Origin: an uncultured Clostridia bacterium
GTDB lineage: Bacteria; Bacillota; Clostridia; Oscillospirales; Ruminococcaceae
Assembly: GCA_947600065.1 (NCBI GenBank)
Contig: CANQFZ010000020.1
Coordinates: forward strand, 1 to 35,905
Reading direction: 5' to 3'
Length of the DNA stretch: 35,905 nt
Shown here: piece by piece, positions 1,888 through 33,924 of the stretch
Numbering within the stretch: position 1 is the first letter of the stretch
How the letters are laid out: every line of letters begins with the position of its first letter
Translations under genes and position numbers: made by a program
The notes under the pieces: model-generated
Database searches by the model: none
Told to the model about the DNA's origin: nothing
What the model saw: the letters and a program-made list of their open reading frames with translations, nothing else

Positions 1888-2165
1888 CGGGGTTGACAGT
1901 ATACAGTTGACAGGGTAGAGTATTCAGTAAGGGCGGAAAGGTTGTTTTTTTCAAACGATATTTCTTTCAATAATGCTCTCTCGCCCCATCCCCCTACCCC
2001 CTTCCCCGAAGGGGAAGGGGGAAAGTCACGGGGACGAAGTCCCCGTGACCCCTGTCCTTTTAGAGGTAAGAGGTAAGAGGTAAGAATATCGGGGAGCATT
2101 ATAGAGAAAAAGTTTTTTGATTGTCACAAAGAAGAAGGGGTAGGGGGTAAGCCCTAGCCTCTAAG
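1888..2165. repeat. Mosaic intergenic repeat: modules D, P and Q
   Basis: The gene-free stretch 1654-2254 holds two promoters and this mosaic. Module D (1893-1960) has ttgacag / acagttgacag runs ending in cggaaaggttgt. Module P (1979-2057) has a ccccttcccc-gaa-ggggaagggg hairpin followed by a perfect 11-bp stem, gtcacggggac-gaa-gtccccgtgac (2025-2049). A run of agaggta heptads (2061-2087) belongs to module Q. The same modules recur at 6648-6855, 13119-13205, 14371-14712 and 21935-22000 in other orders and orientations. Reading frames in this stretch are not convincing genes. Confidence 0.75.
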
Positions 2166-2234: not shown

Positions 2235-2254
2235 AATGAAGGGAAGGATTATCT

Positions 2255-2911
2255 ATCAAAAAGACGATAATTTCTGCGTCGCTTCTTGCGTGTGATTTTG
2301 CGAGCCTTGCATATGAAAGCGAACGCTGTGCAAAAGCAGGAGTAGACTGGATACATTTCGACGTTATGGACGGGCATTTTGTAGAGCAGATAACCTACGG
2401 CTCGCCTGTCCTCAGATCAATAGACAAGGTCACGGACAAGTTTATGGACGTTCATCTTATGGTGGACAACCCCGAAAGGCAGATACCGCTTTTCGCGCGT
2501 TCGGGCGCGGACCTTATAGACGTACATATCGAAAGCAGCAAGGACGTTTTCGGGTGTCTTGAGGAAATACGCGCGTTCGGACTTAAATCGGCGGTAGCGG
2601 TAAAACCTAACACTCCCATAGAAGAAGCGTATAAGTATCTTCCGCTTTGCGATATGGTGCTTGTTATGACGGTAGAACCCGGTTACGGCGGGCAGAGCTT
2701 TATGACCGAGATGATGACAAAAGTAAGAAAGCTCCGCGATTATGCCGACAAAAACGGCTTTGCCGACCTAGACATACAGGTAGACGGCGGCGTGAATACC
2801 CGCACGGCAAAAATTGCGCGCAATGCGGGAGCAAATGTTCTTGTCGCGGGAACGGGGCTTTTCGGCGCTGCCGATATGAACGCAGTGTGCTCCGCTTTGA
2901 AAGGAATTTAA
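2255..2911 (+). CDS. rpe: Ribulose-phosphate 3-epimerase (apparent ATC start)
   Basis: Interconverts ribulose 5-phosphate and xylulose 5-phosphate in the pentose phosphate pathway; a metal-dependent TIM barrel. Visible family motifs are IISASLLACDFASL at the N-terminus, HFDVMDGHF, MDVHLMVDNP, MTVEPGYGGQSF and IQVDGGVN. The only in-frame ATG (2366) falls inside HFDVMDG and would remove the first 37 residues, including the first beta strand and active-site residues. The frame is open back to a TGA at 2237. The strong ribosome binding site AAGGGAAGGA (2239-2248) points to an ATC codon at 2255, giving 218 aa, the usual family length. An alternative is a one-base error or frameshift in the AAAAA run at 2258-2262, which would join an ATG at 2236 to this frame. 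The stop is 2 nt before the rnfD-like gene. Confidence 0.9.
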   Translation: MKKTIISASLLACDFASLAYESERCAKAGVDWIHFDVMDGHFVEQITYGSPVLRSIDKVTDKFMDVHLMVDNPERQIPLFARSGADLIDVHIESSKDVFGCLEEIRAFGLKSAVAVKPNTPIEEAYKYLPLCDMVLVMTVEPGYGGQSFMTEMMTKVRKLRDYADKNGFADLDIQVDGGVNTRTAKIARNAGANVLVAGTGLFGAADMNAVCSALKGI

Positions 2912-2913: not shown

Positions 2914-4023
2914 ATGGCGGAAAATGCCAACAATTTGCCCGTGAGGGCTTATGCCGAAAGATTTGTTTTTATGGCGGCAGTTGTGGTGCTTGCGGCGTTT
3001 ATGCAGGGATCAAGAGCCGCAGTTGTGGGCGCTGTAGGCGTTGTTTCGGCAATGGCCGTGGACGCGCTGTGCTGTCTGGTGAGAAAACTGCGCTACGACC
3101 CGAAGGATATAGCTGTGCCGTTTTGGGGACTTTGCTCGGGAATTATGATGCCGATAAGCGCCCCGCTCTGGGCGGCGATATTGTCTGCGGCGGTCTGCAT
3201 AATTGTCGGAAAGCACTTTTTCGGATCTTCGGACAATATTCTGTTTTGTCCGCCCGCTATCTCCACGGCGTTTATGATAATATGCTATCCCGCCGAGATG
3301 CTGTATTTTCCGAAATACGGGGAAACATACCCCCTGTTTGGGAGCTATAACGGCACGCTTATACACTCTGCCGAATATTCTCTGCGCATAGGCTATACGC
3401 CGTCTGAGGATATATGGGACACGCTCCTCGGATTTACCAGCGGTCCTATAGGGACAATATATGTTCTGGTGATACTGGTCTGCGGGATATGCCTAGCGCT
3501 TCGCAGAAAGGCAAGTCCCGCCGCTATGCTGTCGTGTATACTGACGGTAGGTATAATGGCGTTCTTTTTCCCGAGAGCAAAATACAGCGCATGGAACTCG
3601 GTATTCTACGAGCTTTCTTCGGGATATCTGCTTTTCGGAACGGTCTTTTTGTGTACCGAGCCATACCGTATGCCGAAAAAGACTTCTGCGCGAATAATCT
3701 ACGGCGCAGTCTTAGGATATATAACCATGATGTTCCGCATATACGGAAGGACGGAGGGCGGCTTTATATTCGCACTCTTGGTAGTAAGCGCGCTTTCGGA
3801 CTGCTTTGACAGGTTTGTGGACAACCTTGTATACTGGAGAAGATCCTATCTTTCTTCTTTTGAAAAGAATAAGGTGAGCGTACAGAGCGGAAGTATGAAG
3901 CTCACGGACACACAGGAAATAATGCTCCCCGAAAAATACCGCTATAATACCCCGCCCATTGACGGAAAGATAAAGAAACACAAAGGACGCCGCAGGAACA
4001 GGAGGGACAATGAAAAACAATAA
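2914..4023 (+). CDS. RnfD/NqrB-like membrane protein, divergent
   Basis: A 369-aa multi-pass membrane protein related to RnfD, the FMN-carrying subunit of the Rnf complex. Family marks are IVGKHFFGSSDNILFCPPA (residues 97-115, the canonical GKHxFGGxGxNxFNPA region), AFMIICYPAEM, LLFGTVFLCTEP near 239-250 and RIIYGAVLGYITMMFRIYG near 260-278. In canonical RnfD a threonine in an S-(G/A)-A-T motif after the GKH region holds covalent FMN. Here the corresponding stretch reads HSAEYSL (151-157) with no threonine. The C-terminal 50 residues are hydrophilic and basic. ATG 2914 has GAAAGGAA upstream inside the end of rpe. The last 14 nt overlap the rnfE-like gene. Membership is secure; loss of FMN attachment is inferred from alignment by eye. 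Confidence 0.82.
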   Translation: MAENANNLPVRAYAERFVFMAAVVVLAAFMQGSRAAVVGAVGVVSAMAVDALCCLVRKLRYDPKDIAVPFWGLCSGIMMPISAPLWAAILSAAVCIIVGKHFFGSSDNILFCPPAISTAFMIICYPAEMLYFPKYGETYPLFGSYNGTLIHSAEYSLRIGYTPSEDIWDTLLGFTSGPIGTIYVLVILVCGICLALRRKASPAAMLSCILTVGIMAFFFPRAKYSAWNSVFYELSSGYLLFGTVFLCTEPYRMPKKTSARIIYGAVLGYITMMFRIYGRTEGGFIFALLVVSALSDCFDRFVDNLVYWRRSYLSSFEKNKVSVQSGSMKLTDTQEIMLPEKYRYNTPPIDGKIKKHKGRRRNRRDNEKQ

Positions 4024-4615
4024 TAAGTCCTTCAGTCTTGACGGGCTTTTCAGACAAAATATAGTGCTTGTAAGCGGACTTGTTACCGCCCCGATCATAA
4101 TAGCCTGCACGACGCTTATGCACGCGCTTGTCCTTTCAATAGGCTTTTTTATGATATCCTACCTGTCTATATTGATATGCAGGTTTATCCCGTCGAAGAT
4201 AGCCTATACTTTCAGGATAATGCTTTATGCGCTTGTCGCGGCGGCGCTGTATATACCGACAATATTGTTCTTAAACAATATCTATCCCGAAGCCGCAAAC
4301 CAAGTTATGCTCTATATCGAGCTTATGGCGGTAAATTCGCTTTTGTTTGCAAAGACCGAAAGCCGATTTTATCTTATACCGTTCGGAAAAATGATGATAG
4401 ACGTGTTTGTTTATATCGCGGGCTTTGCGGTGGTGGCGTTTGTTGTCGGCTTTGTGAGAGAGCTTTTGGCAAACGGCACGCTCTTCGGAACAGAAGTTTG
4501 CCCCGCGATAATGCCCGCGGCAAGCTCGCCGTTTTTCGGGTTTATACTTGTGGGATTGCTTGCGGCGCTGTGCAGAGCCGTTTCCGAGCGCCGAAAGGAG
4601 CGCAAAGATGGCTGA
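4010..4615 (+). CDS. RnfE-like membrane protein lacking cluster cysteines
   Basis: A 201-aa protein with about six membrane helices, homologous to RnfE/NqrD. RELLANGTLFG (150-160) matches the conserved RE(I/L)xGxGTLF of the family, and LMAVNSLLFAKTES (105-118) matches PLIVVNCAxxGRAEA. In functional RnfE, one cysteine in GLCP and one in VNC help bind the intramembrane [2Fe-2S] cluster. Here the first site reads TAP (Ala27) and the second VNS (Ser110). The remaining cysteines (33, 57, 164, 188) are not at those sites. The gene starts at ATG 4010 inside rnfD-like, with AGGAACAGGAGGG upstream, and ends inside rnfA-like, so the three are likely translationally coupled. Confidence 0.82.
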   Translation: MKNNNKSFSLDGLFRQNIVLVSGLVTAPIIIACTTLMHALVLSIGFFMISYLSILICRFIPSKIAYTFRIMLYALVAAALYIPTILFLNNIYPEAANQVMLYIELMAVNSLLFAKTESRFYLIPFGKMMIDVFVYIAGFAVVAFVVGFVRELLANGTLFGTEVCPAIMPAASSPFFGFILVGLLAALCRAVSERRKERKDG

Positions 4616-5204
4616 AGTTTTTGCGAGAATGATAAGCCTTGCGATGATTGCGATTTTTTCACAAAACGCGGTATTTGACAGGGCATTCGGCGTGGACGTA
4701 GCGATATACGCTTCAAGAAAAAATCATCACATAATCGGCTTTACCGTTGCCACTACTGTTATGACGACGCTTGCGAGCGCGGCGGCATATCCGTTTGACA
4801 TAATGCTTCTGCCGACAAAATACGGATATTTGTTTATGCCGCTTATTTATGTGGCAATTGTGAGCATACTCTATCTCATAGGGCTGTTCGTGCTGTGGAG
4901 GGCTTTTCCGAAGGTGTTCTACAGAGTAAAACAATATGCCCACCTTGCGGTATTTAACCTCGCGGTATTCGGAGCGCTTTTCTTAAACTACAATTTCGGA
5001 AAAGGCTTTGCGGGTTATGTCGGATACGGCTTTGGAACGGGAATAGGGTTTTTCCTTGCCTGCTTCTTGCTGAATATCGTACACGAAAGATTTAACAGCG
5101 AAAAGATTCCCCGTATGCTCAGAGGTTATCCCATAACGCTTATTTTTATAGGAATAATTTCTTTGGCATTAAACGTATTAGTAGGATATATGACGGAATT
5201 TTAA
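4608..5204 (+). CDS. RnfA-like membrane protein lacking cluster cysteines
   Basis: A 198-aa six-helix membrane protein homologous to RnfA/NqrE. The C-terminal half is unmistakable: GYGFGTGIGFFLACFLL (139-155), VHERF (158-162), and IPRMLRGYPITLIFIGI (167-183), against canonical VxYGFGAGLGFTLALVLLAGIRERL...VPKxFRGxPI. VATTVMTTLAS (47-57) is also family-typical. The two cluster cysteines of RnfA are replaced: FLGICPF reads AFGVDVA (Asp30) and TTNCAVLG reads VFNLAVFG (Leu118). It overlaps the rnfE-like gene by 8 nt, with GAAAGGAG as ribosome binding site. No rnfB, rnfC or rnfG lies in the window. Possible roles include transport or another membrane activity of the Rnf fold, but none is shown. Confidence 0.82.
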   Translation: MAEVFARMISLAMIAIFSQNAVFDRAFGVDVAIYASRKNHHIIGFTVATTVMTTLASAAAYPFDIMLLPTKYGYLFMPLIYVAIVSILYLIGLFVLWRAFPKVFYRVKQYAHLAVFNLAVFGALFLNYNFGKGFAGYVGYGFGTGIGFFLACFLLNIVHERFNSEKIPRMLRGYPITLIFIGIISLALNVLVGYMTEF

Positions 5205-5331: not shown

Positions 5332-5389
5332 AGGAGTGGAATTTTTTTACAGTATTTTATTAGATTGTTGGGAACAGAGGTCACGGGCG

Positions 5390-6553
5390 TTGAAATATAA
5401 AAAGACAAAAATAAAGATAAAACGAAGCAAAGTAAATCTTTATAATAAGAGGAAAAACAGAAAAAAACAGGTCGCGGCTATAATAATAACCGCTGTGGCA
5501 GCGTGTGCGCTGTGTATTCTGGGATATGGGATAGGAAAGCCGCTTATGGATTATTTCCGAAACCGCGATACGATTATTTCTTCTTCCGCAATGTGGACGC
5601 CCGAAGGTTCGGAAGCTCTCGAAAACTCCTCGGACGCTTCAAGCACGCCCGCTCAAAGTTCGTCGCAAACGCCCGTTGAACAGCCAAAGCCCTCTATGAC
5701 AAAATCGGCTTATTTCCTTTCGGGAGAAGCGGCACTAAGCTCAGCAGCGCTTAATTCGGAAATATCCGCGGCAAAATCATCGGGACACTCGGTTATAGTA
5801 GTAACGCTTAAAGACAGCGAGGGAATATTCCTCTATAAGACCGCAATTGAAAAGGTAAAGACAAAAGGCACTCTTACCGCCTCGCAGATAGCCTCAGAAA
5901 TAGAAAAAGCGGGGCTTATTCCCGCCGCAATGATAAGCACGCTTAAAGACAAGACAAACGGAGTTGCTCTGGGGTGCTGTTATAAGTTTAAAGAAGGCGC
6001 GACATGGCTCGACGGTCGCCCGGGAGTGGGAAAAACGTGGCTGTCTCCCTTTGATGATAAGACGGGGGAATTTATAAAGGCTATAACTTCCGAGCTTTCA
6101 AATGCAGGATTTAAGCGCATTGTCGCGGTCGATACGATGTACCCGAATTTTTATTCATCGGACATTTCGGAAAACTTAGCTCATCTGCCGCTTAAAGACA
6201 GAACAAAGCGCGCAGAAGCGCTGTGGAACGTTATTGCTTCGGCAAAAGAGGGCTGCGGCGAAGCGGAGCTTTATATTGAAATGGACGGCTCAAAGCTTAT
6301 TGCGTCCAAAAAAGACGGAACAAACGCAGAGATGGCGTTTACGCCCGAAAGGCTCAAAACCGCGAACCTTATCGTTGATTATTCGCCTTCGGAGTCCGAC
6401 CCGTATGCCGCGGCACAGAAATTCATTGAAAAGCTGAAAACGGCTCTTGGCGGGGCGGAATGCGTCGTAAGGATAAAGGGCAATTCACAAACGATCATTG
6501 AGAATGTCAAAAAAGCTTTTGATGAGGCGGGAATTGAAGCCTTTTCACAATAA
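5390..6553 (+). CDS. Membrane-anchored protein with divergent DUF4015-like (putative glycosidase) domain
   Basis: 387 aa from a TTG at 5390. AGAGG lies 9 nt upstream, and the start gives a classic basic N-terminus (KKTKIKIKRSK) before one membrane helix (about 28-47). A longer GTG start at 5336 sits at the edge of a repeat and has no good ribosome binding site. A Ser/Pro/Thr-rich linker (about 62-105) leads to an extracellular domain. SGHSVIVVTLKDSEGIFLY (131-149) resembles the VVIDVKDDxGxxxY stretch of DUF4015. WLDGRPGVGKTWLSPF (206-221) and GFKRIVAVDTMYPNF (240-254) align with W.DPYN...GFDEIQFDYIRFP. The DYIRFP box is DTMYPN, so activity is doubtful. Role unknown; cell-wall or exopolysaccharide contact is a guess. 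Confidence 0.6.
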   Translation: MKYKKTKIKIKRSKVNLYNKRKNRKKQVAAIIITAVAACALCILGYGIGKPLMDYFRNRDTIISSSAMWTPEGSEALENSSDASSTPAQSSSQTPVEQPKPSMTKSAYFLSGEAALSSAALNSEISAAKSSGHSVIVVTLKDSEGIFLYKTAIEKVKTKGTLTASQIASEIEKAGLIPAAMISTLKDKTNGVALGCCYKFKEGATWLDGRPGVGKTWLSPFDDKTGEFIKAITSELSNAGFKRIVAVDTMYPNFYSSDISENLAHLPLKDRTKRAEALWNVIASAKEGCGEAELYIEMDGSKLIASKKDGTNAEMAFTPERLKTANLIVDYSPSESDPYAAAQKFIEKLKTALGGAECVVRIKGNSQTIIENVKKAFDEAGIEAFSQ

Positions 6554-6609: not shown

Positions 6610-6870
6610 TATTCATCTAGATACTAGAGAATTAGAGGCTAGCATACAACAACCTTTCGGATATTACTGACTACTGTACCCTGTCAACTGCCAACAGAGC
6701 GGGTGCAGGGCGCGCAGCGCCCTGCATTCTCCCCCTTCCCCTTCGGGGAAGGGGGGCAGGGGGATAGGGCGAGATAACGTCATATAAAGAAACAACGTTT
6801 AGAAAGAACAACCTTTCGGATATTACTGACTACTGTACCCCGTCAACTGCCAACAGGGTGAGTAATGGAT
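6610..6870. repeat. Mosaic intergenic repeat with two direct D modules around an inverted P module
   Basis: The gene-free stretch 6554-6979 is mostly this block. Module D occurs twice in direct orientation (6648-6697 and 6805-6855), both running from caacctttcggatattactg to gtcaactgccaacag. Between them lies module P on the minus strand, with the perfect hairpin tgcagggcgc-gca-gcgccctgca (6704-6726) and the ccccttcccc/ggggaagggg stem (6731-6760). Near the left end is a tagaggctag fragment of module Q. Confidence 0.75.
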
Positions 6871-13306: not shown

Positions 13307-14287
13307 ATGTGTACTGCGGCGACTTATTTAACCGAAAAAGGTTTTTATTTCGGGAGAACGCTTGACTATGAGTTCTCTTATGGCGAAAGGATATGCGTTG
13401 TTCCGAGGAATTTTGCTGTTGGTTTAAGGCATGAACAAACGCTCGAAAAACATTATGCGATTATCGGAATGGCGACAATAGCGGACGACTATCCGCTGTT
13501 CTATGACGGAGTAAACGAAATGGGGCTTGCTATGGCGGGGCTTAATTTTGTAGGTAATGCTTGCTACAGCGGCGGCGAAGAAGCGGGAAAAACAAATATC
13601 GCCGTATTCGAGTTTATCCCGTATCTGCTCGGAAAGTGCTCGAACATTACAGAAGCTAAAAAGGAGCTTGAAAACTTAAATCTTATAGGCGAGGCATTCA
13701 GCGAAAAGCTGCCCTGCGCACAGCTTCACTGGCTGATATCCGACAAGAGCGGCTCTATAACGGTAGAATGTACCAAAAACGGAATGGACGTTTATGACAA
13801 CCCTATTGGGGTCTTGGCGAACAACCCGCCGTTTCCGCAGATGATGAACGCGATAAGCGACTGTGCAAATCTTTCTCCGAAGCAGCCCGAAAGCGTGTTT
13901 GACGGGAAAGCTCCGTTTTCGTCATACTCGCGCGGAATGGGCGGGATAGGGTTACCAGGAGATCTTTCTTCAAAGTCGAGGTTTGTAAGGGCGGCATTTG
14001 TAAAGCTGAACTCAAAGAGCAGCGGCGAAAAGCTGTCCGAGATATCGCAGTTTTTCCATATTCTGGGTTCTGTTGACCAACAGCGCGGGTGCTGCGAGGT
14101 AAAGGAAAACGACTATGAGATAACGATCTACACGGGCTGCTGCGATTGCGACAACGGAGTTTATTATTACACGGGCTATGACAATCACCAGATAAACGCC
14201 GTGGATATGCGCCGCGAGGACCTCAATTCGTCGGAGCTTAAAGTATTTACGCCGATATTTACGGAGCAGATAAACTATATGAATTAG
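13307..14287 (+). CDS. Choloylglycine hydrolase family protein, probable bile salt hydrolase
   Basis: 326 aa Ntn-hydrolase that would cleave the amide bond of glycine- or taurine-conjugated bile acids; penicillin acylase activity is the main alternative in this family. Removal of Met1 exposes the nucleophile Cys2. The full active-site set is present: Cys2, Arg17, Asp20, Asn80 (AGLNF), Asn172 (LANNP) and Arg225 (SSKSRFVRA). GIGLPGDLSSKSRFVRAAF, RGCCEV and IYTGCCDCDNGVYYY are typical of bile salt hydrolases. No signal peptide, so cytoplasmic. ATG 13307 has GGGAGGT 9 nt upstream. The gene stands alone between repeat blocks and suggests life in an animal gut. Substrate preference cannot be read from the sequence. 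Confidence 0.9.
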   Translation: MCTAATYLTEKGFYFGRTLDYEFSYGERICVVPRNFAVGLRHEQTLEKHYAIIGMATIADDYPLFYDGVNEMGLAMAGLNFVGNACYSGGEEAGKTNIAVFEFIPYLLGKCSNITEAKKELENLNLIGEAFSEKLPCAQLHWLISDKSGSITVECTKNGMDVYDNPIGVLANNPPFPQMMNAISDCANLSPKQPESVFDGKAPFSSYSRGMGGIGLPGDLSSKSRFVRAAFVKLNSKSSGEKLSEISQFFHILGSVDQQRGCCEVKENDYEITIYTGCCDCDNGVYYYTGYDNHQINAVDMRREDLNSSELKVFTPIFTEQINYMN

Positions 14288-22026: not shown

Positions 22027-22857
22027 TTACTTGTCCAGCTTATGCCCGCAATAAGGGCAGAATGTTTTCTCGTCGTCGGGTTCGGGGGTTTCTTTTTCCG
22101 CTTTGTTGCGCTCTATTTGCTCCGTAAATCCCGCCGAGATTATGCCCGTCGGAACGGCGACAAGTCCGATACCCAAAATTGCTATAATTGCGCTCATAAT
22201 TTTTCCGACGACTGTAACGGGGTATATATCGCCATAGCCTACAGTTGTGAGCGTTGCTATTGCCCACCACATTCCCGACAGCGCGTTGTCAAAAACTTCG
22301 GGCTGTGCCTCGTGCTCCGCGTCATACATCAGGACGGCGGCTATTATCATCAGAAATGACACAACAAGCATTGAAGAAATAAGCTGTCCTGCCTTGCGCT
22401 TAAATACCTCGCCGATGTCTTTAAGCGCGTGAGTGTAGCGGTTGAGTTTAAAGACGCGCAAGAGGCGCAGGACACGGAACATACGCAAAACCATGAAACT
22501 TGACGACATAGCGGGAATAAAACTCGGCAAAAGCGATACCAAGTCGATAACTGCCGCAAAAGTCCTTATGTATCTAAGACGCGCGCGAAACGGCGAAAGC
22601 TCCGTAAATTTAAGGTCGGAAGTCCAAAGGCGCAGAATGTATTCCACCGTAAAAACAGCGACAGAAACATTTTCTATGACCGTGAAAACTTGTATTGCCG
22701 TCTCATGCAGCTCAAACGTCCCCGCAATTATAAGCGCGACATTGAGCAAAATAAGCGACATCAAAATTATATCAACGGCTTTGCTCAGCTTGTCGTCAGG
22801 CTTTGCGACTTCGAGCACCTCGTAGACGCGCCGTTTAAGGCGGTTGTATCTGCTCAT
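22027..22857 (-). CDS. Voltage-gated-type potassium channel (6-TM)
   Basis: 276 aa. Six membrane helices: S1 about 27-46, S2 58-78, S3 97-115, S4 119-140, S5 157-178 and S6 218-243. S4 carries regularly spaced arginines (LRMFRVLRLLRVFKLNR). The pore helix and selectivity filter are WWAIATLTTVGYGDIYP (197-213), the K+ signature. A short C-terminal tail ends in CPYCGHKL (Cys267, Cys270), a half zinc ribbon. ATG 22857 has AGGTG 5 nt upstream; an in-frame extension to 22899 lacks a ribosome binding site. It starts 38 nt after the preceding unknown gene and is the last gene of the pyrimidine run, so it is probably co-transcribed. Confidence 0.9.
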   Translation of the reverse strand: MSRYNRLKRRVYEVLEVAKPDDKLSKAVDIILMSLILLNVALIIAGTFELHETAIQVFTVIENVSVAVFTVEYILRLWTSDLKFTELSPFRARLRYIRTFAAVIDLVSLLPSFIPAMSSSFMVLRMFRVLRLLRVFKLNRYTHALKDIGEVFKRKAGQLISSMLVVSFLMIIAAVLMYDAEHEAQPEVFDNALSGMWWAIATLTTVGYGDIYPVTVVGKIMSAIIAILGIGLVAVPTGIISAGFTEQIERNKAEKETPEPDDEKTFCPYCGHKLDK

Positions 22858-22895
22858 TTTATCACCTGTAGTCATTTGACAGTGTACAATTAAAA

Positions 22896-23504
22896 TCAAT
22901 AATCAGCCAGCGAGCAAACCAAAATTCCAAGCCTCTCCATAAGGCTCTCGTAAAACAGCGTAAACAGTATGTCGCAGCTTCCGAGGAGAAACATATTCGC
23001 GTTTGTAAACTCTCTAAGCGACGGCAGGAAGTTCATAATGTAGCTTTTAAACCAGTCCGCGTCGTATACGGGCAAGGGCTTTTTCTTTTTTACGAGCTTG
23101 TTTATATAATCCAAATCTTCTTCTATAACACCGCCGAAGTTTGCCGCGCCTTTTGCGGAGATAATGTCGAAAATGTCCTTTATCTGCTTGTCGGTTAAAG
23201 TTCCCCCGCTCGTCTTTATGTATTTAAGCTCGGGCAGTCTTATTGCAAATGAATAAACGACAAGCGGCAAAACCCGCTCAAATCCCGCGTCTTTGGGAGC
23301 TTTGGTTTCTCCCTCGGCAAAAAGCGCCTTTGTGTTCGTTATGTCTTTCAGCGAAATTTTCAGAATCTCTCTTATACTCGTGTTATAGAAATCCTTTTCG
23401 GAAACGGCACAGATGTATTTTATCGCATTTACGAGCGAAATTCCCGCCTTTACGACGGTTTCGGATATCAGCTCATACGCCGTGCTTTCATCTTCAAACT
23501 TCAC
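22896..23504 (-). CDS. Hypothetical protein, family not recognised
   Basis: 202 aa, predicted soluble and mostly helical, with a hydrophobic stretch FLLGSCDILFTLFYESLMERLGILV near the C-terminus. No known motif is recognised. It starts with GTG (23502-23504), has AAAGGA 6 nt upstream and overlaps the tcdA stop region by 11 nt, which supports a real, translationally coupled gene. The channel gene follows after 38 nt. Codon use resembles that of its neighbours. A link to TcdA or to the channel can only be guessed. Confidence 0.75.
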   Translation of the reverse strand: MKFEDESTAYELISETVVKAGISLVNAIKYICAVSEKDFYNTSIREILKISLKDITNTKALFAEGETKAPKDAGFERVLPLVVYSFAIRLPELKYIKTSGGTLTDKQIKDIFDIISAKGAANFGGVIEEDLDYINKLVKKKKPLPVYDADWFKSYIMNFLPSLREFTNANMFLLGSCDILFTLFYESLMERLGILVCSLADY

Positions 23505-24222
23505 TTTCTGTCCTTTCTCCGCTGTTCGGAACAGGCGTGCTTTCCGAAATAATGTCCTTTACCGCTTCAGACGCTAAGAGAAGCCCCGCCGCCGCAGGAA
23601 CAAACGCACAGCTCGCGGGAACTCTGTCGCTTCTTATGGGAAGCTCGGTCGAAAAAACGACCTTTAAGTGTTCTATGCCGCGGCTTCTCAATTCATGCCT
23701 TACTACCCTCGCCAGCGGACAAACCTTTGTCGAAAAGATGTCCGAAACGCGAAAGCCCATGGGGTCGAGCTTGTTTCCCGCGCCCATACAGCTTATTATC
23801 TTTACGTTAAGACTGTTGCAGACTTCTGCCAGAAGGACCTTCGCCGAAACGTCGTCCACCGCGTCTATAACATAGTCATACTCCGAGAAATCAAACGCGC
23901 CTATGCTGTTTTCATTCAGGAAAAGCGGAAACTTCCGCAGAATTATTTCGGGGCTTATATCAAGAAGGCGCTCTGCAAATGCGTCTGTTTTTAACATTCC
24001 GACAGTGCTGTGGAGCGCTATTATCTGGCGGTTTATATTTGAAAGCGCCACTCTGTCGCCGTCTATAAGGTCAATTGCGCCTATGCCGCTCCTCACTAAA
24101 CATTCCGCCGCATAACCGCCCACTCCGCCAAGCCCGAATACCGCGACTTTTGATTTGCTCAGCTTTATTATCGCGTCTTCTCCCAAAAGCGAAGCCGTTC
24201 TCGTTAGTTCTTCAGTTACCAT
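23494..24222 (-). CDS. tcdA: tRNA threonylcarbamoyladenosine dehydratase (TcdA/CsdL family)
   Basis: ThiF/E1-like enzyme that uses ATP to cyclise t6A37 of tRNA to ct6A. 242 aa. The N-terminal nucleotide-binding loop is VAVFGLGGVGGYAAECLVRSGIG (about 26-48), followed by the E1-type DGDRVALSNINRQ (54-66). YDYVIDAVDD and ISCMGAGNKLDP are typical of the YgdL/TcdA group, as is the C-terminal RSDRVPASCAFVPAAAGLLLASEAV. It follows pyrD by 4 nt; its ribosome binding site GGTGAAAG overlaps the pyrD end. Nothing here calls for a link with pyrimidine synthesis beyond shared transcription. Confidence 0.92.
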   Translation of the reverse strand: MVTEELTRTASLLGEDAIIKLSKSKVAVFGLGGVGGYAAECLVRSGIGAIDLIDGDRVALSNINRQIIALHSTVGMLKTDAFAERLLDISPEIILRKFPLFLNENSIGAFDFSEYDYVIDAVDDVSAKVLLAEVCNSLNVKIISCMGAGNKLDPMGFRVSDIFSTKVCPLARVVRHELRSRGIEHLKVVFSTELPIRSDRVPASCAFVPAAAGLLLASEAVKDIISESTPVPNSGERTESEV

Positions 24223-24226
24223 TCTT

Positions 24227-25138
24227 TCACCACGGCTTTACCTGTCCGACAATTTCCGAAAGGGATCTTATGCCGTTTTCTTCCATATACTCTTCTATGC
24301 CGTCTATTACTTTAAGCGGCGAATAAGGGTCTGTAAATATCGCCGTTCCCATTTGTACGGCGCTTGCTCCCGCGAGCATCATTTCTATTGCGTCCTCGGC
24401 TGTGGATATTCCGCCCATACCGATTATGGGAATGTTTACGGCATTGTGACACTGCCACACCATTCTCACCGCAACGGGAAATACCGCAGGTCCGCTTAGT
24501 CCGCCGACGTTGTTTTTAAGAATAGGTCTTCTTGTCTTTACGTCAATTCTCATTCCGAGGAGCGTGTTTATAAGCGAAATACAGTCCGCGCCCTCTGCCT
24601 CCGCCGCTTTTGCAATTGCGGTTATGTCCGTTACATTCGGAGTGAGCTTTACGATAAGCGGCTTTTTTGTCGCTCTGCGTACTGCCGAAGTCACGGAAGC
24701 CGCTCCCTCGCAGGATATTCCCCACGAAGCCCCGCCCTGTTTTACGTTGGGGCAGGAAATATTAAGCTCTATCATATCGACGTCCGAAGCTTCAAGAACT
24801 TCTACCGCCGCGACATAATCGTCGATCGTCGCTCCCGCAACGTTTGCGATTATCACGTTTCCCTCTTCTTTGAGAGTAGGAAGATAGTATTCCACAAAAC
24901 CGTGAACTCCGATATTCTGAAGTCCTACGGAATTTAAAATTCCCGAATAGCTTTCCGCAATGCGCGGCGGAGGATTTCCGAGCTTCGGTTCTATGGTCAT
25001 GCCCTTGCAGGAAATTCCTCCCAGCTTTGAAAGCGGATATAGGTCGGTATAACATTCTCCGTTTCCATAAGTGCCCGAAGCGGCAATAACGGGGTTTGGA
25101 AACTCAACTCCTGCTATTTTCAACGACATATCAACCAT
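24227..25138 (-). CDS. pyrD: Dihydroorotate dehydrogenase class 1B, catalytic subunit
   Basis: Oxidises dihydroorotate to orotate with FMN and passes electrons to PyrK and on to NAD+. 303 aa. Motifs are NPVIAASGTYGNG, GISCKGMTIEPKLGNPPPR, NSVGLQN, the active-site loop ELNISCPNVKQGG, where a cysteine acts as base as in class 1 enzymes, VKLTPNVTDI, NNVGGLSGPAVFPVAVR, and GMGGISTAEDAIEMMLAGASAVQMGTA for phosphate binding. The start overlaps the pyrK end by 8 nt, with GGAGGTGAG as ribosome binding site; a second in-frame ATG three codons in is possible. Adjacent pyrK confirms class 1B. Confidence 0.97.
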   Translation of the reverse strand: MVDMSLKIAGVEFPNPVIAASGTYGNGECYTDLYPLSKLGGISCKGMTIEPKLGNPPPRIAESYSGILNSVGLQNIGVHGFVEYYLPTLKEEGNVIIANVAGATIDDYVAAVEVLEASDVDMIELNISCPNVKQGGASWGISCEGAASVTSAVRRATKKPLIVKLTPNVTDITAIAKAAEAEGADCISLINTLLGMRIDVKTRRPILKNNVGGLSGPAVFPVAVRMVWQCHNAVNIPIIGMGGISTAEDAIEMMLAGASAVQMGTAIFTDPYSPLKVIDGIEEYMEENGIRSLSEIVGQVKPW

Positions 25139-25904
25139 TGAACCTCACCTCCTCGGCATTGAACACGGGTCCGTCCTTGCAGACGCGCGAATAATATTCC
25201 TGTCCGTTTCTGACGGTCATACATGAGCAAACCACGCACGCTCCCACTCCGCAGCCCATTCGCTGTTCAAGCGATACCTGACACGGAACATTATGCGCCT
25301 CGCAGGTCTTTATAACCGCCTTTATCATAGGCTCGGGTCCGCAGGCGCAGACCAGCGCATAATTTCCGCTTTTAAGTTCTTCTTCCAGCGGCACTGTCAC
25401 AAGCCCGTGAACGCCGACGCTCCCGTCGTCCGTACAAAGAATTGTTTTCGTTCCGAACTCCTCGAACTCGTCGTTTAAAATTATCCTCGTATAATCGCGA
25501 AAGCCTAATATTGCGGTACAGAGCGAGCTTGTTTCGCGGGAAATTTCCAACAGCGGCGGAACGCCTATTCCCCCGCCGACAACGATTATCTTCTTTCCCT
25601 CGGGGATATTAAACCCGCGCCCCAAAGGACCGAGAACATCGAGCGAATCTCCCTCGGAAAGCTGAGCTAGCGCATATGTTCCCTTTCCGCGCACCTCGAA
25701 CACAAACCTAAGTGTTCCGTGTTCTTTGTCAATTTGACAGATAGAAATGGGGCGGCGGAGCGTAAATCCCTGCACGCCGATATTAGCGAACTGACCCGCC
25801 TCGGCTTCGTCTGCAAGCTCGGGCGCGTCAATAACGACCGAATAAATTCCTTTCGCAAGAGTACGCTTTTCAATTATGGGATATTTTCCGCAAAAAAAGC
25901 TCAT
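25131..25904 (-). CDS. pyrK: Dihydroorotate dehydrogenase electron transfer subunit
   Basis: Ferredoxin-reductase-like subunit carrying FAD and a [2Fe-2S] cluster, linking PyrD to NAD+. 257 aa. FAD binding is marked by LRRPISIC (about 49-56), NAD binding by VVGGGIGVPPLLEI (about 106-119), and the cluster by GCGVGACVVCSC plus a later cysteine in SRVCKDGPVF. ATG 25904 follows AAAGGGAGAG. The 133-nt gap to carB contains a large perfect dyad and a -10-like box (25943-25990), so expression of pyrK and the genes behind it may be separately controlled. Confidence 0.96.
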   Translation of the reverse strand: MSFFCGKYPIIEKRTLAKGIYSVVIDAPELADEAEAGQFANIGVQGFTLRRPISICQIDKEHGTLRFVFEVRGKGTYALAQLSEGDSLDVLGPLGRGFNIPEGKKIIVVGGGIGVPPLLEISRETSSLCTAILGFRDYTRIILNDEFEEFGTKTILCTDDGSVGVHGLVTVPLEEELKSGNYALVCACGPEPMIKAVIKTCEAHNVPCQVSLEQRMGCGVGACVVCSCMTVRNGQEYYSRVCKDGPVFNAEEVRFNG

Positions 25905-25942
25905 ATTCTCTCCCTTTCGTTTTTGGTAACTTATTTGTCGGC

Positions 25943-25990
25943 ATTATATACGGGCAATTCGGCTAAAAGCATATTAAACCGAATTGCCCG
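25943..25990 (-). promoter_or_regulatory. Perfect 12-bp dyad with -10 box between carB and pyrK
   Basis: Arms cgggcaattcgg (25951-25962) and ccgaattgcccg (25979-25990) are perfect complements around a 16-nt AT-rich loop. On the minus strand a TATAAT (25943-25948) follows directly. The -35 position (TGCTTT, 25966-25971) is poor and lies between the arms. As there is no T run after the stem on the minus strand, it is not a normal terminator. It could be an operator or activator site for an internal promoter, or an RNA hairpin affecting mRNA stability. Confidence 0.45.
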
Positions 25991-26037
25991 AGCCGCGCAT
26001 ATATTATCCGTTTTTTTAACCGCGTTATGCCAACGCT

Positions 26038-29000
26038 TTATATCTTAGTTATATCCACAAGCTCAATATCGTCTATGCTTCTGTTTGCTTCAAGACAATC
26101 AAGAAGCGCATTCGCCGTGTCTATTGCCGTAAGGCAGACGATAGAGCGCTCTACGGCTTTTCTCCTCATTCTTACGCTGTCGAGCGAGGGCTTTCTTCCC
26201 GTTTCCGAGGTAGAAACAACATAGCTCACCGCGCCGCTTTCGAGCAGGGTCATAACGTTGGGTTCTTGTTCTTCGTGTATTCTGTAAACGTGGTTTGCGG
26301 CGATCATATTTCTGATAAGGACCGAAGCCGTGCCGCCCGTAGCGTAGATCGTAAAGCCTAATGCCTCAAATCTTGAAGCGATCTCTATTATCTCGTTCTT
26401 GTCGCTGTCGCGCACGGAGATAAGAACGCCGTATGTTCCGTCGGGAGAATCGGGATTTTTCCCGCTGTCGGGGTGGCAGAACTTATATCCCGCCGCAGTA
26501 AGTCCTTTGTAGATAGCCTCGCCGAAAGTCTTTGCAATTCCGAGGCACTCGCCCGTTGACTTCATTTCGGGACCGAGCTGATTGTCAACGTCATGGAGCT
26601 TTTCAAAGCTGAACACGGGAACTTTTACCGCGACATAAGCGGCATTTGGATAAAGTCCGTTCTTATATCCCATATCCTTCAGCTTTTTGCCTAGGATTAT
26701 TTTTGTCGCAAGGTCTACCATAGGAACGCCCGTGACCTTGCTTATATAAGGCACTGTTCTTGAAGAACGAGGGTTTACCTCTATTACATAGACTTCGTGA
26801 TTATAAACAACATACTGGATATTTACAAGACCTATGACATGGAGAGCCTTTGCGAGCTTTTCCGTGTAGTCTATGATGACCTTTTTGATATGCGGAGTGA
26901 GATTCTGCGAGGGGTATATCGAAATGCTGTCGCCCGAATGTATGCCCGCGCGCTCAACGTGCTCCATTATGCCGGGAATTACAAAATCCTCTCCATCGCA
27001 GATAGCGTCAACTTCGACTTCCGTTCCCATCATATACTTGTCGATAAGAACGGGGTTTTCAAGCTCGTGCGAGGTTATTATCGCCATATATTCCGAAACG
27101 TCCGCGTCGCAGTGGGCTATTATCATATTCTGACCGCCGAGGACATACGACGGACGGAGCAGAACGGGATAACCCAGCTCGTTTGCGGCTTTGAGCGCCT
27201 CTTCTGCGGTAAATACCGTTTCGCCCTTCGGGCGGGGGATATTGCACTTTTCAAGCAGCTCGTCGAACAGCTCTCTGTCCTCTGCGGCGTCAATATCTGC
27301 GGCTTGTGTTCCGAGAATGCGAACGCCCATTTCCGTCAGGTGTTTTGTCAGCTTTATCGCCGTCTGACCGCCGAACTGAACAACGCAGCCATACGGCTTT
27401 TCGGTCGCGATAAGCGCTTCTACGTCCTCTTTCGTCAGCGGGTCGAAATAAAGGCGCGTTCCAGTGTCGAAGTCGGTAGAAACGGTTTCGGGGTTGTTGT
27501 TGCAGATTATTGCTTCACAGCCTTCTTCTTTCAATGTCCACACGCAGTGTACCGAGCAATAGTCAAACTCAATACCCTGTCCTATTCTTATAGGTCCCGA
27601 GCCGAAAACTATAACCTTTTTCTTGTCCGAGGGGTGCTGTTCTATAAATTCTGCGGCTTCGTTCTCGTCGTCAAAGTCGTTGTAGAAATAGGGCGTATCG
27701 GCAGAAAACTCCGCCGCGCAGGTGTCGACCATTTTATAAACGGCGAGCTTTCTCTTTATGCCCTTGTCGGCGAGTTTCTGCCCCGAAAGTTTTTCGATAG
27801 AGCTGTCGAGATAGCAATATTTCTTCGCGAGGTCGTATTTCTCCTGCGTAAGTTCTCCGTCTTTTAACTGCCGTTCAAGTTTTACAAGGTTCAAGAGCTT
27901 TGAAATAAACCACTTGTCTATCTTCGTTATTTCGTGAATGTCGTCAACTGAAATCCCGCGCTTTAACGCTTCGAACACGCAGAACGCCCTGTCAACGTCA
28001 ACGTCTTTCAGCTTTTCGCGCACCTGCTCGTCCGAAAGCTCCGTAAACTCGCGCTTTGTGAGGGTGTCCATTCCCAGTTCAATAGAACGCACGGCTTTCA
28101 TCATTCCCGCCTCAAACGAGGGAGCGATCGCCATAATTTCGCCCGTTGCTTTCATCTGCGTGCCGAGCGTTTTCTTGGCATAAACGAATTTATCGAACGG
28201 CCACTTTGGGAACTTTACTACAAGATAATCAAGCGCAGGCTCAAAACAAGCGTAGGTCTTTCCCGTGACCTGATTTATAATTTCATCGAGCGTGTAGCCT
28301 ACGGCAATTCTCGCCGCGACCTTTGCTATAGGATAACCCGTAGCCTTTGACGCAAGCGCCGAAGAACGTGATACACGGGGATTTACTTCTATTACCGCGT
28401 ACTCGAAGCTGTCGGGCTTTAATGCAAACTGACAGTTACAGCCGCCCTCGACCTTGAGAGCCTGTATTATGTCAAGCGCCGCCGTTCTGAGCATCTGATA
28501 TTCCTTATCCGCGAGCGTAACGGTAGGCGCTACTACTATGCTGTCGCCCGTATGCACGCCCACGGGGTCGAAGTTTTCCATAGAGCAGACGGTTATAACG
28601 TTGCCCTTTCTGTCGCGCATAACCTCGAACTCAATTTCCTTCCAGCCCGAAATGCACTTTTCGACAAGTATCTGCGTAATGGGCGAGAGCCTAAGTCCGT
28701 TTGTCGCGATTTCGTGAAGCTCCTCGCGCGTTTCGGCGATACCGCCGCCCGTACCTCCGAGCGTAAACGCGGGACGGACGATAACGGGATAGCCTATCTC
28801 CTCCGCGAAAGCCATTGCGCTGTCAATGTCCTCGACAACTTTAGACGGGATAACGGGCTGTCCTATTTCCTCCATAGTGTCCTTGAAAGCCTGTCTGTCC
28901 TCGGCTTTGTGAATGGTTTCGGGATTAGAGCCCAAGAGCTTTACGTTGTGTTCGGCAAGAAATCCGCTTTCTGCAAGCTGCATTGAAAGCGTGAGCGCGG

Positions 29001-29280
29001 TCTGCCCGCCGAGGTTTGAAACGACCGAGTCGGGCTTTTCGATTTCAATAACGCGCTTTACAACGTCAAGCGTTAGCGGCTCTATGTAGATCTTGTCCGC
29101 CATATGCTTGTCGGTCATAATGGTAGCGGGGTTTGAGTTTATAAGCACAACTTCAAGCCCCTCGGCTTTCAGCGCGCGGCAAGCCTGCGTTCCCGCATAG
29201 TCGAACTCCGCCGCCTGTCCTATAACGATAGGGCCCGAGCCTATTACAAGCACTTTCTTTATATCTTCTCTTAAAGGCAT
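26038..29280 (-). CDS. carB: Carbamoyl-phosphate synthase large subunit
   Basis: Makes carbamoyl phosphate from bicarbonate, ammonia (channelled from CarA) and two ATP, for pyrimidines and arginine. 1080 aa, full length. The two homologous synthetase halves begin at KKVLVIGSGPIVIGQAAEFDYAG (residues 8-30) and at KKVIVFGSGPIRIGQGIEFDY (about 552-572), each with an ATP-grasp domain (FTLGGTGGG; YVLGGQNM). The C-terminal MGS-like regulatory domain starts near 940 (YGVLISVRDSDKNE...GFTIYATGGT). ATG 29280 lies 27 nt after hepT. In most genomes carB directly follows carA; here a three-gene cassette of about 1.1 kb separates them. Confidence 0.98.
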   Translation of the reverse strand: MPLREDIKKVLVIGSGPIVIGQAAEFDYAGTQACRALKAEGLEVVLINSNPATIMTDKHMADKIYIEPLTLDVVKRVIEIEKPDSVVSNLGGQTALTLSMQLAESGFLAEHNVKLLGSNPETIHKAEDRQAFKDTMEEIGQPVIPSKVVEDIDSAMAFAEEIGYPVIVRPAFTLGGTGGGIAETREELHEIATNGLRLSPITQILVEKCISGWKEIEFEVMRDRKGNVITVCSMENFDPVGVHTGDSIVVAPTVTLADKEYQMLRTAALDIIQALKVEGGCNCQFALKPDSFEYAVIEVNPRVSRSSALASKATGYPIAKVAARIAVGYTLDEIINQVTGKTYACFEPALDYLVVKFPKWPFDKFVYAKKTLGTQMKATGEIMAIAPSFEAGMMKAVRSIELGMDTLTKREFTELSDEQVREKLKDVDVDRAFCVFEALKRGISVDDIHEITKIDKWFISKLLNLVKLERQLKDGELTQEKYDLAKKYCYLDSSIEKLSGQKLADKGIKRKLAVYKMVDTCAAEFSADTPYFYNDFDDENEAAEFIEQHPSDKKKVIVFGSGPIRIGQGIEFDYCSVHCVWTLKEEGCEAIICNNNPETVSTDFDTGTRLYFDPLTKEDVEALIATEKPYGCVVQFGGQTAIKLTKHLTEMGVRILGTQAADIDAAEDRELFDELLEKCNIPRPKGETVFTAEEALKAANELGYPVLLRPSYVLGGQNMIIAHCDADVSEYMAIITSHELENPVLIDKYMMGTEVEVDAICDGEDFVIPGIMEHVERAGIHSGDSISIYPSQNLTPHIKKVIIDYTEKLAKALHVIGLVNIQYVVYNHEVYVIEVNPRSSRTVPYISKVTGVPMVDLATKIILGKKLKDMGYKNGLYPNAAYVAVKVPVFSFEKLHDVDNQLGPEMKSTGECLGIAKTFGEAIYKGLTAAGYKFCHPDSGKNPDSPDGTYGVLISVRDSDKNEIIEIASRFEALGFTIYATGGTASVLIRNMIAANHVYRIHEEQEPNVMTLLESGAVSYVVSTSETGRKPSLDSVRMRRKAVERSIVCLTAIDTANALLDCLEANRSIDDIELVDITKI

Positions 29281-29307
29281 AGTTTTTTATCCTTCCTTTT
29301 TGTTCTT

Positions 29308-29646
29308 TTATTTCAAAACGTCTTGAAGCTGTTTTATCAAGACAGGGATCTCATTTAGTACAACATCTGCGATTATTTCCCAGTTTGTTCCGTCATAATC
29401 GTGTACAAGTCTGTGCCGTAGCCCCGCAATTAAGCTCCATTGAATTTGAGGAGTTTTATCTTTAAATTCCTGTGTAATCAAATAAGCGTGTTCACCGATA
29501 TTATACAGCGGCGTAGTGATTGCCCATTGAACGCCATAATCTTCCTTAATAATATCTCTGCTTACATTATGCTCTTTAACATACTGTATCAGTTTTTCGG
29601 CATAGTCCAGAATTTTTTCTATTCTCTGTTCGTCCGAATATTTCAA
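29308..29646 (-). CDS. hepT: HepT-like HEPN ribonuclease toxin (DUF86)
   Basis: 112 aa, all-helical HEPN-domain protein, expected to be the RNase toxin of a HepT-MntA type VII toxin-antitoxin pair. The catalytic RX4-6HXY motif is intact: R77-HRLV-H82-D-Y84 within GLRHRLVHDYDG. In studied systems MntA inactivates HepT by adding AMP groups to this tyrosine. The start overlaps the mntA stop by 4 nt (ATGA), the typical coupled arrangement with the antitoxin gene first. It lies on the same strand as, and between, carA and carB, and looks more AT-rich than the flanking pyrimidine genes, which suggests acquisition. Confidence 0.9.
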   Translation of the reverse strand: MKYSDEQRIEKILDYAEKLIQYVKEHNVSRDIIKEDYGVQWAITTPLYNIGEHAYLITQEFKDKTPQIQWSLIAGLRHRLVHDYDGTNWEIIADVVLNEIPVLIKQLQDVLK

Positions 29647-29945
29647 GCCACCCTCACCCTATCCTTCATAACGTTATGATAAAACGGTGTGTTTAACTTT
29701 AGTTCTCTTATCTCGTAAGCGTCAACATCGCGTTTTAAAGCAAGGCTCATTTCATGACCAAATCCTAAAGTGTCCACAAGTTTAAAACCCTCTCCGCCTA
29801 TGATAAGAAAATCAACGTCGCTTTCGCCGTCCGCTTCTCCTCTTGCATACGAGCCGAAAAGATACACTTCGCTTATTTTATATTTCTCGGCAAACGGTTT
29901 CACCGCTTGGCGAATGTCGTCCAATGTCAATACATTTTCAGCCAT
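29643..29945 (-). CDS. mntA: MntA-like minimal nucleotidyltransferase antitoxin
   Basis: 100 aa from ATG 29945, chosen because GAGGA lies 7 nt upstream and the longer in-frame form runs back into the preceding gene. It has the minimal nucleotidyltransferase signature GSX10DXD: Gly31-Ser32...Asp43-Val-Asp45 in LFGSYARGEADGESDVDFLI. It should AMPylate and so neutralise the HepT toxin. A third conserved Asp is probably in the KRDVDAYEI stretch. It lies 10 nt after an unknown gene and overlaps hepT. Confidence 0.9.
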   Translation of the reverse strand: MAENVLTLDDIRQAVKPFAEKYKISEVYLFGSYARGEADGESDVDFLIIGGEGFKLVDTLGFGHEMSLALKRDVDAYEIRELKLNTPFYHNVMKDRVRVA

Positions 29946-29955
29946 AACACCATCC

Positions 29956-30384
29956 TCAAAAAACTTGATCTTCCAGATCATTCCTGACTGCAATATATCC
30001 CTCATGCGTTGTTGTAAACAACAGCGGCAAATCTTTATCATCAAAAAAAGCAATGTCGTTGAACCCGAAATCAGTGTTTTCCGAAATGTCTCCTTTATCG
30101 GAAACCGTATATTTACAAAAGGTCTCAAACTTTTGCAGATATTGAAACAGTTCTCTTGAAGCCGTCAGCTTATACACCTTGCTCTTTTTGCTTGATTTCG
30201 TTCCCCACCATTTATTTTTAGGCTGAACAGACACAACTAAATCCTTAAACTTATCAACAATTCTTGTGTCGTCTTCGTCCACTAAAACATATTCAATATA
30301 TTTGCTTTTCTGTTTCAAATGTTTTAGTATGTTCAGATAATCCGCATGGCTGTTGAGTTTTCCGGTATAGTCTTTTAATTCCAT
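29956..30384 (-). CDS. Hypothetical protein upstream of mntA-hepT
   Basis: 142 aa from ATG 30384 (GAAAGAGAG upstream); a longer form to 30444 lacks a good start. The protein is charged and soluble, rich in Lys, Asp and Phe, with no membrane segment. A notable stretch is DIAFFDDKDLPLLFTTTHEGYI near the C-terminus. No family is recognised with confidence. It is 10 nt from mntA, has the same AT-rich look, and so probably belongs to the inserted cassette. It may be a third component of the toxin-antitoxin module or a passenger. Confidence 0.72.
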   Translation of the reverse strand: MELKDYTGKLNSHADYLNILKHLKQKSKYIEYVLVDEDDTRIVDKFKDLVVSVQPKNKWWGTKSSKKSKVYKLTASRELFQYLQKFETFCKYTVSDKGDISENTDFGFNDIAFFDDKDLPLLFTTTHEGYIAVRNDLEDQVF

Positions 30385-30455
30385 GTTAAACTCTCTTTCA
30401 AATTGCGATTTATTGAGCAGTAAAAAACAACTTGCCAACAACACAAAAGTATAAA

Positions 30456-31550: not shown

Positions 31551-31564
31551 TTCAGCCTCCGAAA

Positions 31565-32509: not shown

Positions 32510-32544
32510 AACCTTTCGTCCTTTCTGTTTTTTAGTTCAATATA

Positions 32545-33816: not shown

Positions 33817-33842
33817 AAGCCCTCCTTTTACTTGATTATTTG

Positions 33843-33870: not shown

Positions 33871-33924
33871 ATAAAATTCGGACTGTTTATAAAGATTCGT
33901 CTGTACTGTCAACTTCCCATTAAA

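Follow-up and report, generated by a model that had tools for sequence, protein, structure and literature searches.

The Rnf complex (RnfABCDGE; PDB structures 7zc6, 9eri and 8ahx) and the Na+-translocating NADH:quinone oxidoreductase (Na+-NQR; PDB 7xk3 and 8a1t) couple electron flow to ions, and both the coupling and the ion route, via RnfA/E or via RnfD, are described as debated (PMC12174285). According to the same source, the architecture of RnfA-E recalls H+/Na+ symporters, and RnfD resembles urea/ammonium transporters. In the Rnf of Acetobacterium woodii the ligands of the intramembrane [2Fe-2S] cluster are reported to be C25 and C113 of RnfA and C25 and C108 of RnfE (PMC11889175). Here we describe a stretch of 35,905 nucleotides (the window) from an uncultured Clostridia bacterium of the Ruminococcaceae (assembly GCA_947600065.1, contig CANQFZ010000020.1) that carries three overlapping genes for homologs of RnfD, RnfE and RnfA, here called D', E' and A' and together the trio, in which these cysteines are replaced. 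The initial annotation, made from the letters of the window, proposed that the trio had lost all redox-centre ligands while keeping its fold, and that this reflected coherent repurposing rather than decay. The sequence comparisons below give good support to the view that the trio is a version of the Rnf core crippled in its redox function and maintained by selection. We lean toward the view that it is a duplicated Rnf core of Oscillospiraceae-type Clostridia whose new role is in a complex with a DUF4015 protein, independent of redox chemistry and probably coupled to ions.

In comparison to Rnf, the trio locus retains homologous D', E' and A', the gene order (minus G) and the hinge residues, and the RnfC-like gene found at some loci, C', is a divergent rnfC. 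The trio differs in having no [2Fe-2S] site and in that nearly all D' have lost the flavinylation motif; its locus differs in that no RnfB or RnfG was found, a DUF4015 protein (F4) being present instead, and in the long D' tail in many members. Na+-NQR is alike in its history, as it too has been proposed to go back to a duplicated rnf operon that lost rnfB (PMC4014512), and its NqrA is described as having lost its cofactors (PMC11889175). However, NQR is reported to keep its intramembrane cluster and core flavins (PMC12174285) and gained NqrF, whereas in the trio the redox path is lost, and its locus holds no reductase. The Nqr/Rnf-like two-gene systems described in PMC8238504 and PMC10979944 share with the trio an NqrB/RnfD-like subunit without the conserved Thr, but they comprise, as presented there, just two subunits, with an RnfG-type subunit that binds flavin mononucleotide (FMN) and an NqrF-type NAD domain; the trio is the opposite case. 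No title or abstract opening among the papers found describes such a redox-dead trio. The trio and its ligand positions in the window are as follows:

2914..4023, forward strand: D', RnfD/NqrB-like membrane protein, 369 residues (PF03116, E = 4.8e-49)
within 2914..4023, forward strand: tail of D', 71 residues long when counted from the conserved Asp that follows the last transmembrane (TM) helix, carrying LTDTQEI
3367..3369, forward strand: Ser152 of D', in HSAEYSL, at the FMN-Thr column of RnfD (alignment; Thr162 in the genome's own canonical RnfD)
4010..4615, forward strand: E', RnfE/NqrD-like membrane protein, 201 residues (PF02508, E = 1.3e-21)
4088..4090, forward strand: Ala27 of E', at the RnfE C25 cluster ligand (multiple alignments)
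4337..4339, forward strand: Ser110 of E', at the RnfE C108 cluster ligand (multiple alignments)
4608..5204, forward strand: A', RnfA/NqrE-like membrane protein, 198 residues (PF02508, E = 2e-18)
4695..4697, forward strand: Asp30 of A', at the RnfA C25 cluster ligand (phmmer and multiple alignments)
4959..4961, forward strand: Leu118 of A', at the RnfA C113 cluster ligand (phmmer and multiple alignments)

All three frames are intact, overlapping by 14 bases (D'/E') and 8 bases (E'/A'), and the Rnf/Nqr core signatures first read from the letters were borne out by Pfam scores far above the gathering cut-offs: 167.8 bits for D' with PF03116 (cut-off 27.7), and 77.8 and 67.5 bits for E' and A' with PF02508 (cut-off 23.8). 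Every listed NCBIfam Rnf/Nqr model scores the three proteins under its own cut-off, the nqrB, nqrD and nqrE models giving 66.5, 39.7 and 45.1 bits against cut-offs of 349.9, 244.85 and 247.55. Profiles built from relatives matched RnfD of Clostridium tetanomorphum (7zc6_D, 1.4e-63) for D', RnfE 7zc6_E (1.9e-32) for E' and RnfA 9eri_A (4.8e-37) for A'; the A' of the window alone found the A. woodii RnfA 9eri_A in a phmmer search (E = 2.7e-16), with no gap near either ligand. D' carries PF03116 only, with no C-terminal NAD-binding domain of the kind found in the Nqr/Rnf-like flavinylated systems. Its AlphaFold2 model (computed with 48 relatives) has helices throughout the membrane part, with a mean predicted local distance difference test score of 84.4 and a predicted template modelling score of 0.79, confidence being <50 across much of the C-terminal tail. 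The hinge residues RnfA N19, G27, N116, G121, G172 and P174 and RnfE N15, R67 and R148 (own canonical numbering) are each present in at least 85% of both trio and canonical proteins, and the fold signal is therefore not an artefact of poor alignment. Sequencing error or a pseudogene was ruled out by the intact frames, the 97% A' identity to a genome of the same genus and the purifying selection described below.

The same three-gene set recurs in related genomes. A search with E' matched 135 of 148 genomes of the same family, canonical RnfE matches included, and trio prevalence in the family is not derivable from that number because some genomes matched solely via canonical RnfE. Sixty loci were fetched, each from a different one of the 135 genomes; these 60 genomes stood in the upper part of the list but were not picked in strict order. 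D' lies beside E' in all 60, and A' comes next in 59. A scan of named genomes, from which the best 80 of 105 relatives were kept, gave titles of Oscillospiraceae, Ruminiclostridium, Ruminococcus, Eubacterium, uncultured Clostridia metagenome-assembled genomes and one labelled Bacteroides sp. Many of these came from deer, goat, rumen or 'Lapin' samples, and the nearest were 'Lapin' bins with 96-98% A' identity. Searches of the order, class and phylum, for which the best hits alone were fetched, accompany these, and within the order ten loci from five further families (f5, f9, f15, f23 and f24) bear the trio. The 156 sequences obtained (the window, L039-L178 and L314-L328), minus 7 duplicates and 5 non-trio sequences (L314, L315 and L326-L328), represent 144 distinct loci that yield 140 D', 142 E' and 143 A'. 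The trio is complete and in order in 139 of the 144; contig ends truncate L111, L163 and L171, A' is not adjacent in L071, and in L119 rpe is followed by A' with D' and E' both missing in between.

Two of the sequences set aside, L314 (genome G165) and L315 (G460), which are longer stretches of L274 and L282, have a canonical-like order with E ligand columns that read CG and AG rather than CC, either through alignment error or as further variants. L326 (G200) and L328 (G504), from another family of the order, hold RnfC-RnfD pairs with no E, A, G or B match next to them and may represent a further partial derivative of Rnf.

None of the four cluster cysteines is present in the window, where the multiple alignments confirmed the replacements at Asp30 and Leu118 of A' and Ala27 and Ser110 of E', those of A' also being confirmed by phmmer. 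Trio and canonical loci were classed by the ligand columns of the fetched loci (the D' family profile is insufficient alone in wider searches, as L264, canonical by its cysteines, scored 305 bits with it), and the canonical comparison set of 85 RnfE and 51 RnfA was likewise picked for Cys at these columns. Among the loci so classed, Cys is found in 0/142 E' at C25, 0/142 E' at C108 and 0/143 A' at C25, but in 94/143 A' at C113, a column that is biased in that the best-80 set was found via patterns allowing C, L or A there. When all four columns were scorable (141 loci), 49 loci had no Cys, 92 had one, always RnfA C113, and none had two or more; a four-cysteine cluster site is thus impossible in any scored locus. 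The proposed loss of all ligands is true for the window, yet the wider family often keeps one of them.

ApbE is described as modifying Ser as well as Thr and as recognising D-x-x-S/T-G-A-S/T (PMC12052999). The motif HSAEYSL of D' had been read as a lost FMN-Thr site, and the flavinylation motif is indeed missing there, no [ST][GAV]A[ST] occurring in the D' of the window, but the Thr column holds Ser152 rather than nothing. In the wider set, the column is Thr in 4/140 trio D', and the Asp of the motif is kept in 16/140 as against 40/43 canonical RnfD. The strict motif D..[ST]GA[ST] occurs in none of the 140 trio D' and in 3 of 42 canonical RnfD; relaxed to D..[ST].A[ST], it occurs in 8/140 and 36/42, respectively.

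The trio is a second, paralogous set in this genome, because a complete canonical operon, rnfC-D-G-E-A-B in order, is present on contig C42, with all four cluster cysteines and the Thr sites of RnfD and RnfG in the translations. C42 holds the sole other PF03116 match, the sole FMN_bind match and the sole RnfC match at E <= 1e-20 in the genome, and it rules out the trio as this genome's Rnf genes. The absence of rnfB, rnfC and rnfG from the window was upheld, none being seen near the trio; all three sit on C42 with their own D, E and A, and gene content accordingly gives no ground for a normal complex between them and the trio. Our own canonical RnfB and RnfG queries had no match in the 144 trio loci, the RnfG query being an insensitive one that missed any RnfG in L314. 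The gap between D' and E' has a median of -14 bases and a maximum of 233, which leaves no room for rnfG between them, and the genes scanned from the upstream rpe to position 8897 include no reductase (no NqrF).

Selection on the trio was assessed with the Nei-Gojobori ratio of nonsynonymous to synonymous substitution rates (dN/dS), for the window against nine relatives where computable, with dS near or past saturation for the distant ones. Values were 0.083-0.162 for D', 0.123-0.262 for E', 0.059-0.122 for A', 0.084-0.250 for F4 and 0.008-0.191 for rpe. A quick maximum-likelihood tree of 82 rows placed 33 E' in one clade inside the RnfE part (Shimodaira-Hasegawa-like approximate likelihood ratio test, SH-aLRT, 96) and four A' in one clade inside the RnfA part (SH-aLRT 98); long branches occur in several E', that of the A' of L318 is very long, and the tree leaves the attachment point unresolved. 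Clades placed inside their own subunits fit an existing operon that was duplicated and then diverged. An ancestral, pre-Rnf system was considered and set aside: the trio occurs in one order only in the loci fetched and the E' and A' clades are nested, so a derived duplicate is the simpler account. Taken with the recurrence, the conserved neighbours and the lack of any complete cluster site, these data bear out coherent repurposing over decay.

Conserved neighbours, which had been suggested as worth a search, were found. The order rpe-(mecA, on the opposite strand)-(C')-D'-E'-A'-F4 is strongly conserved across the 144 loci, with rpe upstream in 135, F4 downstream in 130, mecA in 87 and C' in 26, counts that take in loci cut by contig ends. 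MecA was identified by PF05389 in one member scanned. In the window, the two main neighbours are:

2366..2911, forward strand: rpe, ribulose-phosphate 3-epimerase (PF00834, 5.2e-54, from profile position 34)
5336..6553, forward strand: F4, one N-terminal TM helix and an extracytoplasmic DUF4015 domain (PF13200, 1e-07)

F4, whose start is perhaps at 5390, belongs to DUF4015 (PF13200; four members scanned), and its family profile matched the uncharacterised PDB entry 4s1a (1.5e-17). It is of the same family as that structure, from which it differs in being membrane-anchored beside an Rnf-type core and in lacking the Asp of the DYIRFP stretch, in place of which various other residues are found. 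Each of the 135 F4 copies scored (duplicates included) has one N-terminal hydrophobic helix, positive inside (N-in), and 134 have no second helix; RnfG is likewise described as a single-TM anchor with an extracellular domain (PMC9588780). Invariant residues among 50 aligned F4 are D205, W224, W235, E253, D276, R292 and E332. NCBIfam gave no consistent name, with at most 2 of the 50 members per model, and the sole paper found on DUF4015 mentions it in a figure legend. A flavinylated F4 as a substitute RnfG was rejected, since D..[ST]GA[ST] occurs in 0/130 F4 and the looser D..[ST].A[ST] in 5, a weak test as the strict motif is rare in canonical RnfD too (3/42).

The ion route of the A. woodii Rnf provides a further comparison. 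Passage of Na+ there is reported to involve the RnfE R67-E115 pair, RnfA E88, T110 and T111, and conserved gate leucines; R67A in RnfE abolished growth on H2+CO2, and E115Q/K impaired growth while E115A did not (PMC11889175). The cytosolic ion pair is kept in the window:

4214..4216, forward strand: Arg69 of E', equivalent to RnfE R67 (Arg in 135/142 trio and 85/85 canonical proteins)
4358..4360, forward strand: Glu117 of E', equivalent to RnfE E115 (Glu in 118/142 trio proteins, Asp in 4)

At the ion entrance, 104/143 A' have His in place of RnfA P107. RnfA R154, described as interacting with the cluster domain of RnfB (PMC11889175), is missing from most A'. Together with the fate of RnfA E88 given below, these residues indicate that one electron-donor contact is gone and that the ion route has been partly kept and partly rebuilt.

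The initial annotation had suggested a transporter or ion-coupled membrane machine, which is plausible from the retained R67/E115 pair of RnfE, set against the loss of E88, T110 and T111 of RnfA. We hypothesize that A' and E' together retain the half-helix, alternating-access fold and that their inward/outward switching would be driven by a bound ion or solute rather than by cluster reduction. F4 would occupy the extracytoplasmic place of RnfG and be moved or gated by this switch. D' may serve as a scaffold, held on its cytosolic side by C' in some lineages and by its own longer tail in others, including the window. The likely role would be that of an ion-coupled transporter or a force-transducing envelope complex. 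Judged from the anatomy of the proteins, ion coupling combined with moving or gating something via F4 is the most economical mechanism, a view we hold with moderate confidence. Its specific form, a non-redox machine driven by an ion gradient in which A'E' would act as a secondary alternating-access device that drives or gates the DUF4015 subunit in RnfG's place, is put forward tentatively, and the device is possibly proton-coupled, given the His at the ion entrance.

Several observations weigh against a redox-independent, ion-coupled complex with F4. E88 of RnfA, the partner of the RnfE ion pair, is Glu in 1/143 A' as compared to 51/51 canonical proteins chosen as above, and T110 and T111 are lost from A' (T111 is Phe in 125/143); given these losses, the trio does not simply keep the known Na+ path. 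F4 is a likely partner of the trio on the basis of gene neighbourhood and topology, and 14 loci are without it: contig ends truncate three, A' is not adjacent in L071, and ten with downstream sequence, including six C'-bearing loci of f24, have no F4-like gene among the two longest same-strand open reading frames within 1.5 kb of A'. In L119 (a 4.3 kb contig, positions 742-2697) the order is rpe-A'-F4-yajC-like, D' and E' being absent between the first two genes through either real loss or an assembly artefact. In addition, 57 of 61 trio genomes have at least four PF02508 genes, the second pair scoring like canonical Rnf, and in one of the other four genomes (G070) canonical Rnf was probably only cut by the 290-contig assembly. 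Finally, the riboflavin-contacting residues of RnfD, N124 and D248 (PMC9588780, PMC11889175), are found in most trio D' (98/140 and 106/140), which qualifies the claim that every ligand is gone and suggests a possible redox role outside the lineage of the window.

This last point, with the RnfC-like neighbour at 26/144 loci, bears on the alternative that survives best, in which the locus would encode a shortened redox module: D' would bind riboflavin non-covalently and pass electrons to two [4Fe-4S] clusters of C', with no part for the A'E' cluster or RnfG. C' is an RnfC of divergent sequence (110-157 bits with TIGR01945 in three examined, cut-off 246) that bears an SLBB domain and two [4Fe-4S] motifs in two members scanned. 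All eight cluster cysteines are kept in 16/16 aligned C', and N124 is present in 25/26 loci with C'. However, no C' was found in 118/144 loci. It occurs in all six distinct f24 loci (where no F4 was found), in f5, f9 and f15 and in part of the window's family, and not in the f23 locus; the genome of the window has none, its sole RnfC match at E <= 1e-20 being canonical. The D' of the window reads C112 and E249 at the riboflavin sites, and the glycine-rich NADH/FMN loop of RnfC was not seen in four C' sequences. We therefore consider a redox module rather unlikely.

The tail of D' varies with C'. Measured from the conserved Asp, it has a median length of 25 residues in 26 loci with C' and of 73.5 in 114 without, kinship being ignored. 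A cytosolic tail motif, DTQEI...Y..P.ID.K (window 3901-3969, D' residues 330-352), was observed in D' of some lineages without C'; DTQEI is found in 36/140 tails, none of them with C'. We take this motif to resemble a Ser/Thr-kinase or FHA-type docking site. Because canonical RnfD is described as holding RnfC via both terminal arms (PMC9588780), the D' tail may have replaced C'.

It is improbable, in our judgement, that the trio is an alternative membrane core or regulator of canonical Rnf, borrowing RnfB, RnfC and RnfG. The second, canonical-like PF02508 pair in 57/61 trio genomes would allow this, but four genomes have two PF02508 genes only: G070 (78% complete), G076 (83%), G121 (72%) and G102 (94%). 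Neither the last three nor G024, a genome with four PF02508 genes, has ApbE; G070 does have it, along with a partial RnfC that scores over the family cut-off. The RnfC search found none in G076 and G121 and only C' in G102 (about 1.0 Mb). Incompleteness may explain single absences, and less easily the same pattern in a reduced genome that is 94% complete. The loss of R154, the contact to RnfB, from most A' also argues against borrowed subunits.

There is similarly little chance that the former cluster pocket binds a single metal ion via Asp, Ser or Cys, as a metal-dependent electron or metal carrier. RnfA C113 is often Cys (94/143) and the C25 column of A' is mostly polar (Ser 79, Asn 44, Asp 6). 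However, E' has mostly Ala at C25 and Ser or Pro at C108, the residue set varies, and 49/141 loci have no Cys at any of these positions. A decaying, functionless duplicate, to which the missing ligands would point, can practically be dismissed given dN/dS values of 0.06-0.26, intact frames, the ordered trio in 139/144 loci and its retention in the 1.0 Mb genome G102.

Some further features were noted around the trio. The rpe frame has no ATG, GTG or TTG before 2366, yet a conserved N-terminus, KKTIISASLLACDF, is in frame from about 2255, where the true 5' end probably lies; the anomaly (window 2236-2366) points to a rare start codon or else to a frameshift close to the beginning of the gene. 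The same startless layout was observed in the close relatives L039 and L100 and not in L101-L107. Intergenic repeats flank the rpe-trio-F4 block (window 1904-2022 and 6648-6863): a 57-base direct repeat (6648 and 6807), a 118-base inverted pair (1904-2021 and 6732-6849, 77%) and a C/G-rich palindrome, CCCCCTTCCCCGAAGGGGAAGGGGG. The wider surroundings (22027-33912 and 13307-14287) are ordinary, with genes of pyrimidine metabolism (carA/carB, pyrD/pyrK, pyrF-like and dihydroorotase-like), an ion-channel (Ion_trans) gene and ThiF, as well as a choloylglycine hydrolase family gene, a gene set that fits a gut bacterium.

If the repurposing of the Rnf core is true, the trio would be a natural case of such machinery running without electrons, and a selected core without cluster or covalent flavin would offer a test of which part of the machine works electron-free. 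Should the ion-gradient reading hold, Rnf would be a module in which energy coupling is separable from electron transfer. The trio may also represent a second fate for a duplicated rnf operon besides NQR, one that is common in gut Clostridia, and annotation with general Rnf/Nqr profiles could mislead metabolic reconstructions of these bacteria.

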